Positions 13,551-21,759 of a stretch of DNA of 64,000 nucleotides are shown one piece after another. The position numbers were made by a program, and so were the translations under genes. The notes beneath the pieces are model-generated. The model saw nothing but the letters and a program-made list of their open reading frames with translations. It was not told the DNA's origin and made no database searches. Source of the stretch: an uncultured Desulfobulbaceae bacterium. Its GTDB lineage: Bacteria; Desulfobacterota; Desulfobulbia; Desulfobulbales; BM004. Within the stretch, counting starts at the first letter, position 1. The number at the start of each line of letters is the position of its first letter. The stretch is from contig CAMYKS010000031.1 in assembly GCA_947259115.1 (NCBI GenBank), positions 48,936-112,935 of the forward strand, written 5' to 3'.

Positions 13551-15431
13551 ATGGCAACCCAAGAAAGTAATAATAAATTGGCGCCTGCTTCCAAAAGCAG
13601 CAAAACAGCCTCCGGACCTTTGACTGCAGATTTTCTTCGCTCCGTACCCACGGGTCCTGGTGTATATCTCATGAAGAACCGGCAGGGACAGATCCTCTAT
13701 GTGGGCAAGGCAAAAAATCTGCGCAAAAGAGTATCTTCCTACCAGAGGGTGAATCCCAAAATTTCGCCGAAGACGGCTTTGCTGCTCAGCAGGGTTGCTG
13801 CAGTTGAAACGATCCTTACCCGTACGGAAAAGGAGGCCTTTATCCTTGAGGCCTCACTGATCAAGAAACACCGGCCAAGATTTAATATCGACTTAAAGGA
13901 TGACAAGAGTTACCCCCGCATCAAGGTAACTCTGGGCGAAGAGTGGCCCAGGGTGTTTGTGACCCGCCGTCGTATCAAGGACGGCAGCAGGTATTTTGGC
14001 CCATATTCCTCAGCCGGGGCCATGCGCAATACGTTGAACATTATTAAAAGGCTGTTCCCATTGCGCAGATGCAAGGGCAGGAACTTAAAAAAGAGGGGGC
14101 GTCCTTGCCTGAACTACCAGATGGGGCATTGTCTGGCCCCCTGCAGCGGCAAGGTTGGAAAAGAACAGTACAGTAGAATGGTTACAACTATTCTCATGGT
14201 CCTGGAGGGCAGGAACAGGCAGCTGCGGGCTCAATTGGAAACTGAAATGCAGCGGGCCGCAGAAACCCTTGAATTTGAAAAGGCGGCCCTTGTCCGTGAT
14301 AATCTGCAGGCTCTGGCAAAAACCCTTGAGAAACAGGTGGTGGTCAGTAATCTTGACAGGGATCAGGATGTTTTCGGCTATGTACGGAAGGGTGCCGGAG
14401 TTGGTATCGCTGTGATGAATGTCAGGCAGGGTATAGTTTGCGGACAGCAGGTGTTTTTCCTCCTCGATCCCATCGGCGATGACAGCGAGGTGTTAAGAGA
14501 AGTCCTGAGACAATACTACACCCGGGAACAAAGGGTTCCGGATGAGCTGTTACTGCCTTTTCAGGTTGCGGACCATGCTTTTCTTGTTGAGTGGCTGGGC
14601 GACATGCGCGGCAAGGGTGTCCAGCTGCGGGTTCCTAAACGCGGCCAGGGATTAAAACTGCTGCACATGGCAGCAGCAAATGCCAGGCAGATCCATATTG
14701 ATCAGGTAAACAGAGAAAGAAGCTGGCAGGAACTGGCCAGAAACCTGCAGACCAAACTCCACCTTCGATCTTTCCCTGCCAGAGTAGAATGTCTGGATAT
14801 TTCCAATATAGGCGGCAAGCAGCCTGTGGGCTCCCTTGTCTGCTTTATGGACGGTGAAAAAGCTCCAAAGGAGTACAGGCATTACTCTATCAGCGGCGCT
14901 CACGAACCGGATGATTACCGCATGATGGCAGAGGTTTTGGCCAGGCGTTTTGCCGTGGATGACAAACAGAAAACACTCCCTGACCTGCTGGTTATTGATG
15001 GGGGCAAGGGGCACCTTAATGTTGCCAGGGATGTATTGCTGGAAAAGGGGTTGCAGAGTAAGGTGGAACTGGTGTCCATTGCCAAGGACAAGGAGAACAG
15101 GACCGATAAGATCTACCGGCCCGGCAGGAAAAACCCGATCAGCCTGGTGCGCCATTCGCCCGTGCTTTTCTTCCTGATGCAGATACGGGATGAATCCCAC
15201 AGGTTCGGTATTACCTTTCATCGCAGGCTGCGCCGCAAAAGCACCCTTGCCTCGGAACTCGACCATGTGCCGGGAATCGGTCCTGCACGCAGAAAAACTT
15301 TACTGAAAACCCTGGGAAGCATGGCTAAGATCAAAAAGGCTGCGCCCGAGGAATTTGCATCGGTTCCGGGAATAGGTCCGGAACTGGCTGCACAGATATG
15401 GGATTTTTTCAACACCAAGCAGAAAGGATAA
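13551..15431 (+). CDS. uvrC: Excinuclease ABC subunit C
   Basis: A 626-residue dual-incision nuclease of nucleotide excision repair. The N-terminal GIY-YIG domain shows GVYLMKNRQGQILYVGKAKNLRKR. A cysteine cluster (CLNYQMGHCLAPCSG) follows, then a UVR motif (about residues 225-260, LEFEKAALVRDNLQAL). The C-terminal RNase-H-like nuclease has its acidic and His residues in ECLDISNIGG, LLVIDGGKGHL and RDESHRFGITFHR. Tandem helix-hairpin-helix motifs close the protein (VPGIGPARRKTLL, VPGIGPELAAQI). The first 25 residues are a non-conserved extension. A DUF166 gene begins 7 bases after the stop, so the two are probably co-transcribed. Confidence 0.96.
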   Translation: MATQESNNKLAPASKSSKTASGPLTADFLRSVPTGPGVYLMKNRQGQILYVGKAKNLRKRVSSYQRVNPKISPKTALLLSRVAAVETILTRTEKEAFILEASLIKKHRPRFNIDLKDDKSYPRIKVTLGEEWPRVFVTRRRIKDGSRYFGPYSSAGAMRNTLNIIKRLFPLRRCKGRNLKKRGRPCLNYQMGHCLAPCSGKVGKEQYSRMVTTILMVLEGRNRQLRAQLETEMQRAAETLEFEKAALVRDNLQALAKTLEKQVVVSNLDRDQDVFGYVRKGAGVGIAVMNVRQGIVCGQQVFFLLDPIGDDSEVLREVLRQYYTREQRVPDELLLPFQVADHAFLVEWLGDMRGKGVQLRVPKRGQGLKLLHMAAANARQIHIDQVNRERSWQELARNLQTKLHLRSFPARVECLDISNIGGKQPVGSLVCFMDGEKAPKEYRHYSISGAHEPDDYRMMAEVLARRFAVDDKQKTLPDLLVIDGGKGHLNVARDVLLEKGLQSKVELVSIAKDKENRTDKIYRPGRKNPISLVRHSPVLFFLMQIRDESHRFGITFHRRLRRKSTLASELDHVPGIGPARRKTLLKTLGSMAKIKKAAPEEFASVPGIGPELAAQIWDFFNTKQKG

Positions 15432-15438
15432 CATTGGC

Positions 15439-16071
15439 ATGTTTACAATAGTGGTATTTGAAGAACATGGCTCAGGAGAAAAGAAGATCCAGGGCATCAC
15501 CGAACATGGGTCCGGATTGAAAATCAGCAAACGTTATAATATTGAAGAGACTCTGCCTGAGTTTATTGATGATCCGGAACACTATATAGCGGAAGATTTC
15601 TCTGCGGATCTTGTCTTGGATTTCCTGAAACACCCTGACCTGTCATCACATCTTGCCCGGGTTTGCAGGAAGAAAAACATTCCGCTTATTGCCTCCGGCA
15701 AGAAACACGCAGAGGCGATGACGCCTTTTACCTGATGCGGGCTTGGCCGCCTGCAGGCTGCAGGTGTTTACGGCAGACAGTTTGGTTTGCCTGAATACAG
15801 TGTTGAAGTGGAAAATGGCAGGGTTGCCTCCATTGAGGTAAAAAGGGGTGCCCCGTGTGGGGCAACCTGGGATGTTCTGGCCAGGATAATTGGGTTGCCT
15901 CTTGATAAGGCAATCTCCACCCTGGCCCGGGAAGTCCAGTATATCTGCTATGCCGACCCGAGTGCTTTTGATCCCATATCAGGTAAAAGTCCGCTGCATT
16001 ATGCAGGGGATGTGCACGCAGCGGCATTTAAAAAGGCCATATCAGAGCAAAAGCCTGAACATGATGCCTGA
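15439..16071 (+). CDS. DUF166-family protein, probable selenoprotein (in-frame UGA at codon 99)
   Basis: Two open frames, 15439-15732 and 15736-16071, are in the same reading frame and separated only by TGA at 15733-15735. Read through, they give one 210-residue DUF166 protein. The N-terminal half has LPEFIDDPEHYIAEDF and the C-terminal half has LPEYSVEVENGRVASIEVKRGAPCGATW, both DUF166 hallmarks. Codon 99 would be selenocysteine in MTPFT-U-CGLG, next to Cys100. A bacterial SECIS-like hairpin lies at the right distance (listed separately). DUF166 has no firm function; old thymidylate synthase labels are unreliable. The start has AGGA 8-11 bases upstream. Alternatives are a recent nonsense mutation or a sequencing error. 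It lies in an apparent operon with uvrC. Confidence 0.82.
15746..15774 (+). promoter_or_regulatory. Bacterial SECIS-like hairpin after UGA
   Basis: CCTGCA (15750-15755) pairs perfectly with TGCAGG (15759-15764) around a GGC apical loop. GCCG (15746-15749) pairs with CGGC (15771-15774) across a 6-base bulge. The loop starts 20 nucleotides after the UGA at 15733, and its first two bases are G. Both features fit the known bacterial SECIS rules (loop 16-37 nt downstream, G in the first loop positions). Confidence 0.75.
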
Positions 16072-16336: not shown

Positions 16337-17134
16337 ATGCTGAATAATAAGTTCAAGATAATGGTTGCTGCCATAATAGCTGCATTGCAGACTTTCATCA
16401 TATTGCCCTGTCAAGCAGGTACCACATTCACTCCAAAGAATAATTCATGCAAAGAAATTCTTTTAGCAGGGTCATGGGTGGAATATCCCGAGGGCTGGTT
16501 TTATACTTTGGATCAAATGGAAGAACTGTATGAAGTGGAGTATTTTGAAAATAATAGATTGGATTATTTCATAAGGCATGAAAATGATAAATACATAAAT
16601 CTCTGCGATAATGAAACGACTGAAATTCAGGGAAAATTTATTGAAACGACCTTGAAACTGCTCAATGAAATGCTTGATAGAGGGCTCATAAAATACTTGT
16701 TCAGGCTGGATACTTTTCATGGTCATTTTTTTGTTGCTGGAGAGCAATTTGAAAGAAAATATACAAATCTCACGACAAGACAAATGATGCAAGAATTTGT
16801 CAATGATGATTCTTTAGGTATTCTGTTTCATTGTGCCGAACATTTGGCCCTACGGAATCCACCTCAAACAGGGACTATAGATGATGAGGCCCAACGGTTG
16901 ATAAAGCAGCGCAATATAATTGGCTGGTATGATGTGGAAATAATTGAGGTTATAACCGGCGAAAATAATGAGTTGATCGGTGATGGAAAATCAAATACCG
17001 CAACAATTCCCCAAGGGTTTCGCGCAGTAGGGTCAATCACTTTTAAAGCGAATGTCAACGGTGAGTTTACTATTAAACATGACGGCCAATCAATAAATTT
17101 AGATATAAGCTTATGTGACTATTATTACCATTAG
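16337..17134 (+). CDS. Uncharacterised secreted protein
   Basis: A 265-residue protein with an N-terminal signal peptide (hydrophobic MVAAIIAALQTFIILPCQA, cleavage likely before GTTFTP). I do not recognise the family. The mature part has scattered Cys residues, an LFHCAEHLALR segment that could bind metal, and an Ile/Asn-rich C-terminus ending in DYYYH. The gene is more AT-rich than its neighbours, which may mean horizontal acquisition. AGGAG and AAGGA lie just before the ATG. A truncated MITE starts two bases after the stop codon. Confidence 0.72.
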   Translation: MLNNKFKIMVAAIIAALQTFIILPCQAGTTFTPKNNSCKEILLAGSWVEYPEGWFYTLDQMEELYEVEYFENNRLDYFIRHENDKYINLCDNETTEIQGKFIETTLKLLNEMLDRGLIKYLFRLDTFHGHFFVAGEQFERKYTNLTTRQMMQEFVNDDSLGILFHCAEHLALRNPPQTGTIDDEAQRLIKQRNIIGWYDVEIIEVITGENNELIGDGKSNTATIPQGFRAVGSITFKANVNGEFTIKHDGQSINLDISLCDYYYH

Positions 17135-20013: not shown

Positions 20014-21759
20014 ATGGAACCCAAACCTATTCGTTTACAGGACTGTTACAAGACATATACCTACGACCAGGACAAGGTATTTACTCCTGAGGAGACTGTC
20101 AAGCGTTTCAAGGAGCGCCTTGCAGAAGTTGATCTTGATATTTTAAAAGAGGTGCGCCGCATTGACAACGGACGGCTTGATATCCCCATCTATTTCAGCA
20201 TCACAGGAAAAGACGCCCGGGAAGTTATCGGCAATAAAAAACAGATGGGTAAAGGCAGTACTCCGGAGCAATCAGAGGCAAGTGCCTGCATGGAACTGGG
20301 TGAACGGTTCAGTTTTTTCAGTTTTATAAAGAATCCCGACAATTTTATAACCGGCACCTATCCGCAACTTAAAGCAGAAGGTTATAACCTGCTGCCACTC
20401 AAACGGCTGCTGCAGTCTGTTCATGATGAGACCACGGGCGAGGAGATGCTTGCCAAACTTCTGGCCGATATCCCTATCAAATGGACCTGGGCCACCAACC
20501 TGAACAGACAGGAAGAGGTACTTATGCCGTTTTCCTGGTTTTATGCCATCAACGAATTTAACGGGCCCTCAAACGGCAACTCCTATGAAGAGTCCATATC
20601 CCAGGGGATTTGTGAGATAATAGAGCGCCATGTCTGCGCCGTTGTCAGCCAAGAGAAAAGGCAGGTGGGTCGCATCAGGCCCGATTCTGCCAAAGATCCG
20701 GTTTCACGTGAGTTGATTGAGAAATTCACCAGAAATGGTATTGAGATTTACCTGAATGATTTCACCCTTGATACCGGGGTGCCGACCATCAGTGCACTTT
20801 GTATTGATCCGTCAACATTTCCTGTCATGAGTGAGATCGTCTGGACCGCCGGCACCACCCCGAATCCGGAAAAGGCCCTTATTCGGGCACTCACTGAAGT
20901 GGCCCAGCTTGCAGGAGACTTCAATACCCATGCAAACTACGTGGCCAGCGGCCTGCCCAAGCCGCTGGCCATGGAGGAAGTGGATTACCTTTTGAGCGGC
21001 CCTGAGATAGACCTGCAGGAGATTCCCGACCTTACAAACGACAATATGAAGACCGAAGTTGAGAGCTGCCTGGCAGCCCTTGAAAATCTCGATATGGAAG
21101 TTTTCATTGTCAATACCATGCATCCGCAGCTGAAAATGCCCACAATCTACACCATCATACCCGGCGCACATTTCCGGGAGAGAGCCACAAGCAGAAATGC
21201 CGGTCTTTTTGCAGCCAAGCTCATGGCCGAACTGGTCGAAGACCCCATAGAGTCCAACGCCCATCTTCTCAACATGCAGAAACTGCTGCCTGATGCCTAC
21301 TTCATTGAATTTTATATGGGCCGTAATCTTCTTGATCTTGAGCGGCGGGATGAAGCCCTGATCCATTTCAACAGGGCACTTGACCTGAACCCCAGTGCAG
21401 AGGATCTGCCCTATATATATTCCTATATCGGCAGTTGCCTCAAGGATCTTGAGCGCTACAGGGAAGCAATTGCTGTCCTTGAAAAGGGTGCCGGGGTCGA
21501 TAATACAAGGCCTGATATTCATAATCTGCTGGGCTTCTGTCATTTCAAGCTGGAGGAATATGAAAATGCAGTTTCCCATTTCAGCAAGACCATTGAGTTG
21601 AATCCTGCCTCGGCTATTGATTATGCCAATCTGGGGGTAAATTATCGCAGGCTTGAAAAAAATGAAGAGGCCATCAAATATTTTGAACTTGCCCTGTCAC
21701 TTGATCCTTCCATAGGATTTGCCAGGGACAACCTGGATCAGCTCACAGATGTTGCCTAA
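20014..21759 (+). CDS. YcaO-domain protein with C-terminal TPR repeats
   Basis: A 581-residue fusion. Residues about 1-405 form a YcaO domain, the fold that uses ATP to activate amide backbones (azoline, thioamide or amidine formation). Its Mg-ATP residues are visible in SEASACMELGERFS (87-100), SYEESISQGICEIIERH (190-206) and the ALIRALTEVAQ helix. Residues about 430-578 are four TPR units (RDEALIHFNRALDLNP, YREAIAVLEKG, YENAVSHFSKTIELNP, NEEAIKYFELALSLDP). No precursor peptide, TfuA or dehydrogenase gene is adjacent, so the substrate is unknown. GAGAGGAA gives a strong ribosome site. Confidence 0.88.
   Translation: MEPKPIRLQDCYKTYTYDQDKVFTPEETVKRFKERLAEVDLDILKEVRRIDNGRLDIPIYFSITGKDAREVIGNKKQMGKGSTPEQSEASACMELGERFSFFSFIKNPDNFITGTYPQLKAEGYNLLPLKRLLQSVHDETTGEEMLAKLLADIPIKWTWATNLNRQEEVLMPFSWFYAINEFNGPSNGNSYEESISQGICEIIERHVCAVVSQEKRQVGRIRPDSAKDPVSRELIEKFTRNGIEIYLNDFTLDTGVPTISALCIDPSTFPVMSEIVWTAGTTPNPEKALIRALTEVAQLAGDFNTHANYVASGLPKPLAMEEVDYLLSGPEIDLQEIPDLTNDNMKTEVESCLAALENLDMEVFIVNTMHPQLKMPTIYTIIPGAHFRERATSRNAGLFAAKLMAELVEDPIESNAHLLNMQKLLPDAYFIEFYMGRNLLDLERRDEALIHFNRALDLNPSAEDLPYIYSYIGSCLKDLERYREAIAVLEKGAGVDNTRPDIHNLLGFCHFKLEEYENAVSHFSKTIELNPASAIDYANLGVNYRRLEKNEEAIKYFELALSLDPSIGFARDNLDQLTDVA

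Follow-up and report, generated by a model that had tools for sequence, protein, structure and literature searches.

The DUF166 family comprises classical DUF166 (PF02593 in Pfam, and COG1810, which we take to be the same family), which is found in methanogens and some Desulfobacterota, as well as the DfsP branch, which falls into the same Pfam family. DfsP is already catalogued. The NCBIfam entry NF041372 is named "DUF166 family (seleno)protein DfsP", one review gives DUF166 as a prokaryotic selenoprotein family and credits this to work on the symbiont of Olavius algarvensis published in 2007 (PMC9312934, its reference 63), and another review, which cites NF041372, also includes DUF166 among the prokaryotic selenoprotein families (PMC13188914). 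The selenoprotein status of DfsP is right but not new. In the literature that we searched, DUF166 appears by name in only two papers, as a table entry in each, and no paper states its function. The CooC/AcsF ATPases and the AcsV activator keep genomic company with classical DUF166, and the role that we propose below for DUF166 is of the same kind, but DUF166 belongs to a different Pfam family and has no P-loop or RACo domain match. In this article, we analyze one dfsP gene in a stretch of 64,000 nt (the window) and compare it with its relatives.

The dfsP gene and its in-frame UGA

The first-pass annotation of the window had described two frames in the same phase, parted by a TGA alone. The reading of open reading frames confirms this: an ORF of 98 aa (15439-15735) and a downstream ORF share a single phase, and TGA 15733-15735 is the sole break between them. 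When TGA is translated as U, 15439-16071 yields 210 residues with Sec99-Cys100 in the context PFT-U-CGLG, exactly as had been stated. The read-through product matches NF041372 with 289 bits (the cut-off is 200 bits; NCBIfam release 20) over residues 3-201 and profile positions 2-202 of 203, and PF02593 with 132.4 bits (the Pfam gathering cut-off is 24.4 bits) over residues 6-202. Because both matches span the TGA, both halves of the gene contain DUF166 sequence, which bears out the DUF166 hallmarks noted earlier on either side. The gene is thus a member of the NF041372 family, with which it has in common the full-length match, the Sec/Cys site and the SECIS-like element; apart from the loop position in its clade, there is no substantial difference. 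Coordinates of the features are collected in Table 1.

Table 1. Features of the dfsP locus (positions refer to the window)
Feature	Position	Strand	Remark
uvrC	13551..15431	+	7 nt upstream of dfsP
dfsP, predicted DUF166-family selenoprotein gene	15439..16071	+	210 residues, one in-frame UGA, stop is TGA 16069-16071
UGA predicted to be read as selenocysteine (Sec99)	15733..15735	+	UGA or Cys in 67/67 DfsP homologues
Cys100	15736..15738	+	invariant in both DfsP and classical DUF166
Putative bacterial-type SECIS hairpin inside coding region	15746..15774	+	outer and inner stem, GGC loop
Cys140 (PCG motif)	15856..15858	+	invariant across DUF166
Cys170	15946..15948	+	invariant across DUF166 rows aligned with the classical set; at least 90% in the 72-row alignment
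His187	15997..15999	+	invariant across DUF166

Homologues were taken from a survey of 395 genomes of the same phylum and from one genome collection, and 67 DfsP sequences could be aligned. An alignment of homologues at the Sec site was one of the checks that the first-pass annotation had suggested, and the outcome is favorable: the site is UGA in 28 of the 67 sequences and a Cys codon in the other 39, and the next residue is Cys in all 67. The UGA forms are spread over ten family-level groups of the phylum survey and six further, named MAGs, which excludes a sequencing error or a pseudogene. It is extremely improbable that TGA 15733-15735 is such an error, a pseudogene scar or a real stop between two proteins, since a plain table-11 translation of 15439-16071 does yield two ORFs but the TGA is kept in 28 aligned genes with only Cys codons elsewhere, and both frame and sequence are preserved on either side of it.

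The hairpin downstream of the UGA consists of an inner stem, CCTGCA (15750-15755) paired with TGCAGG (15759-15764) around the loop GGC (15756-15758), and an outer stem, GCCG (15746-15749) paired with CGGC (15771-15774). It had been placed 20 nt past the TGA; the hairpin itself stands, but 20 nt is the distance to the start of the loop and the inner stem starts at 14 nt. Hairpins with a G-containing loop are found in 28/28 UGA homologues, where the loop begins 15-21 nt past the UGA, and SECIS-like hairpins are mostly absent from the Cys forms. With a simple score for a hairpin with a G-containing loop within the SECIS range, the mean is 17.8 for the UGA forms (n=28) and 9.9 for the Cys forms (n=39; Mann-Whitney p = 2.5e-10, only indicative because the rows are related and not phylogenetically independent). 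On its own the hairpin of dfsP is unremarkable: its score is equalled or beaten in 532 of 20,000 synonymous recodings, which makes chance only moderately unlikely, its folding energy is ordinary (z -0.37), and none of the single-hairpin free-energy z-scores is significant. We consequently take the support for a SECIS element from the comparison of homologues. An alternative fold competes with the dfsP hairpin in a 46-nt stretch, in the clade of dfsP the GGC loop starts about 3 nt farther from the UGA than do the GGTC-type loops in other clades, and an Rfam scan of the whole window at the gathering threshold gave zero matches.

The genome that carries dfsP also encodes the machinery for selenocysteine. 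All components sought as a further check, namely selA, selB, selD and tRNA-Sec, are present: selA (627 bits) and selB (368 bits) score over their cut-offs, tRNA-Sec reaches 70.8 bits (gathering score 47), and selD occurs in two copies (L114 and L115, 349 and 346 bits). A single in-frame TGA is present in each selD copy, and both are probably selenoproteins themselves. Co-occurrence of selA with DfsP across the phylum is uninformative because selA is over the cut-off in 361 of the 395 genomes. TGA still serves as a stop, given that the terminator of dfsP is itself a TGA. The Cys-form relatives, the SECIS-like element in all UGA forms and the Sec machinery together uphold the earlier claim that dfsP encodes a selenoprotein, and by these sequence comparisons 15439-16071 is very probably a Sec-containing member of the DfsP branch of DUF166 with the UGA decoded as Sec. 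SelB and tRNA-Sec would decode the UGA, directed by the in-frame hairpin that starts 10-14 nt past it.

Conserved residues and history of the Sec/Cys site

In an alignment of 72 rows, Cys100, Gly116, Pro118, Ala138, Cys140 and His187 are invariant. Comparison of DfsP with 29 classical DUF166 proteins of the phylum (22-24% identity) separates the residues of the whole family from those of the branch. Cys100, Cys140, Cys170 and His187 are retained in all 29 proteins, and Pro96 and Gly141 are likewise common to both sides, whereas the Sec column holds Phe (19) or Leu (10), with neither Sec nor Cys, and His193 is found in only one protein, nearly all others having Val/Ile or other residues. On this basis the core of the family consists of three Cys and one His, while Sec/Cys99 and His193 are marks of DfsP. 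Judged from the aligned residues, Sec at 99 is something that the DfsP branch adds and not a family-wide trait. The core of Cys100, Cys140, Cys170 and His187 looks, from its make-up, like a metal or Fe-S site.

Structure prediction gives a very confident AlphaFold model of DfsP (pLDDT 96, pTM 0.90), for which Foldseek finds no solved structure at E<=0.001. The best VIA-align match is the N-terminal region of siroheme synthase (CysG; Z 8.3, 120 residues, rmsd 4.5), which is at the level of unrelated matches, and the fold gives no function because Z values near 8 are typical of common alpha/beta arrangements. A sequence search of the PDB returned no convincing homologue, the best hit being an ankyrin protein with E 0.013.

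On a maximum-likelihood tree built with the Sec column removed, the Sec/Cys labels require 7 changes (bootstrap range 7-7), at least 4 when changes are counted on well-supported branches. The seven-member Sec clade that contains dfsP is nested among otherwise Cys forms with SH-aLRT 99 in a rooted quick tree. Together with the later start of the GGC loop in this clade, this would be compatible with Sec having been regained in a Cys lineage, along with a SECIS at a new place. Repeated loss of Sec elsewhere may account for the same pattern, and parsimony counts cannot separate the two. Two Cys-form genes, L095 and L096, have hairpin scores of 22 and 15 beside the Cys codon; they are placed in a clade containing UGA forms, and their hairpins are likely relics of a recent change from Sec to Cys. 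One genome (G127) has two DfsP genes, L083 and L100, one of the Sec form and one of the Cys form, on the same contig at a distance of about 0.76 Mb.

The first-pass annotation had given DUF166 a redox-active Sec-Cys pair. Judged by the refuting condition named with it (homologues with neither Cys nor UGA at the site), the Sec/Cys-Cys pair holds within the DfsP branch (67/67) and fails for DUF166 at large, where the first position is Phe or Leu in 29/29. A related explanation is that DfsP is a thiol/selenol oxidoreductase in which a vicinal selenenylsulfide formed by Sec99 and Cys100 cycles in catalysis, independently of CODH/acetyl-CoA synthase. Interchange of Sec and Cys on the tree is typical of redox-active sites, the Cys adjoining Sec99 is invariant, and genes for low-potential redox enzymes adjoin some DfsP genes. 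However, classical DUF166 keeps Cys100 just as strictly, which argues that this residue has a function even where position 99 offers no partner, and Cys140, Cys170 and His187 are conserved as much as the Sec site; the fold comparison has no prominent thioredoxin-like match, although such an absence proves little. We regard the oxidoreductase as possible, though less likely than not. The core of three Cys and one His, together with the CODH/ACS context described below, instead points to an accessory protein that deals with a metal or Fe-S unit.

Gene neighborhoods and CODH/acetyl-CoA synthase

In the window, uvrC and dfsP are probably co-transcribed, and each of the six close relatives (L047-L052) has an upstream neighbor of the same family. 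In these relatives a kinase-cluster gene follows dfsP after about 8-290 nt. In the window, an ORF of 265 aa without a Pfam match (16337-17134) separates dfsP from a histidine kinase gene, and farther downstream lies a YcaO domain fused to tetratricopeptide repeats (20014-21759). Elsewhere, DfsP genes neighbor those of 2-oxoacid:ferredoxin oxidoreductase, Fe-alcohol dehydrogenase or Glu-tRNA synthetase. Among the DfsP neighborhoods compared, no gene is conserved across families and none has CODH/ACS genes beside dfsP.

Classical DUF166, for its part, is found in the company of CODH/ACS genes. In one genus it lies in an operon cdhD-cdhA-DUF166-cdhB-cdhC-cdhE (cdhA-DUF166-cdhB loci L084-L086, L122-L125, L135 and L136), with cdhA directly upstream in six genomes; in two further copies (L135, L136) the contig ends inside DUF166. 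In a second lineage, from another family, six genomes have classical DUF166 near homologues of acsB, cdhD and cdhE (L127, L130-L134), and the one locus examined closely, L134, reads acsB-cdhD-cdhE-acsV-(CbiA/MinD-type P-loop protein)-DUF166. Two proteins of Methanococcus maripaludis are also of interest here, MMP0976 and MMP0984, whose locus tags are presumably close on the chromosome. MMP0976 is the COG1810 protein, specific to all methanogens plus A. fulgidus, and MMP0984, "CO_dh", is in the same specificity list (PMC1852104).

Among the 395 phylum genomes, ACS alpha/beta is found in 78 of 85 carriers of DUF166/DfsP compared to 182 of 310 non-carriers (Fisher p = 1.1e-9), and in 58 of 62 when only carriers of DfsP are counted (p 1.3e-8). 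Seven DUF166/DfsP carriers have no detected ACS; among them, cdhA scores over the cut-off in G230, and a fragment of it is present in G187. Relatedness and anaerobic lifestyle both confound this profile; within the families that vary, the association is modest (Mantel-Haenszel p 0.019, with strata tallied by hand and cdhA hits in f13 counted as ACS). In one family of 12 genomes (f34), the sole ACS carrier is also the sole DfsP carrier. Since most ACS carriers are without DUF166, it is not essential for CODH/ACS. The link to CODH/ACS rests on classical DUF166, the branch in which gene linkage is seen; co-occurrence is seen for both branches.

The same data can be explained if DfsP has no connection with CODH/ACS, being instead a small enzyme or a carrier of electrons with an Fe-S unit, and the co-occurrence stems from anaerobic lifestyle and shared ancestry. 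This is in line with the DfsP genes seen, none of which adjoins CODH/ACS genes, and with the modest association within families, but it sits poorly with classical DUF166 lying with CODH/ACS genes in two separate genomic contexts and with the single genome of f34 that has both. We consider it, too, possible but less likely than not.

A possible accessory role for DfsP

A role of DUF166 in the assembly or upkeep of CODH/ACS is plausible, and we infer from it the part that DfsP would play. Our tentative proposal is that DfsP uses Cys100, Cys140, Cys170 and His187 to bind a metal or Fe-S unit and serves CODH/acetyl-CoA synthase. It would be a small alpha/beta protein that assembles, loads or repairs the metal centers of CODH/ACS or contributes to their electron supply, and in the DfsP branch Sec/Cys99 would provide an additional soft ligand or redox-active selenol beside Cys100. 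More broadly, and with the same reserve, DUF166 and DfsP together could form an unrecognized family of metal- or Fe-S-binding accessory proteins of CODH/ACS, in which Sec was perhaps re-acquired in the clade of dfsP along with a new SECIS.

The dfsP gene in the window is one more selenoprotein gene in a catalogued yet uncharacterized family, and as a selenoprotein finding it is ordinary. The newer lead is that the DUF166/DfsP family accompanies the carbon-fixing enzyme CODH/acetyl-CoA synthase, and this association is the part worth following. Natural Sec and Cys variants of DfsP are available for comparison, and the association with CODH/ACS suggests for DUF166 a role that can be tested, in an ancient pathway of carbon fixation.
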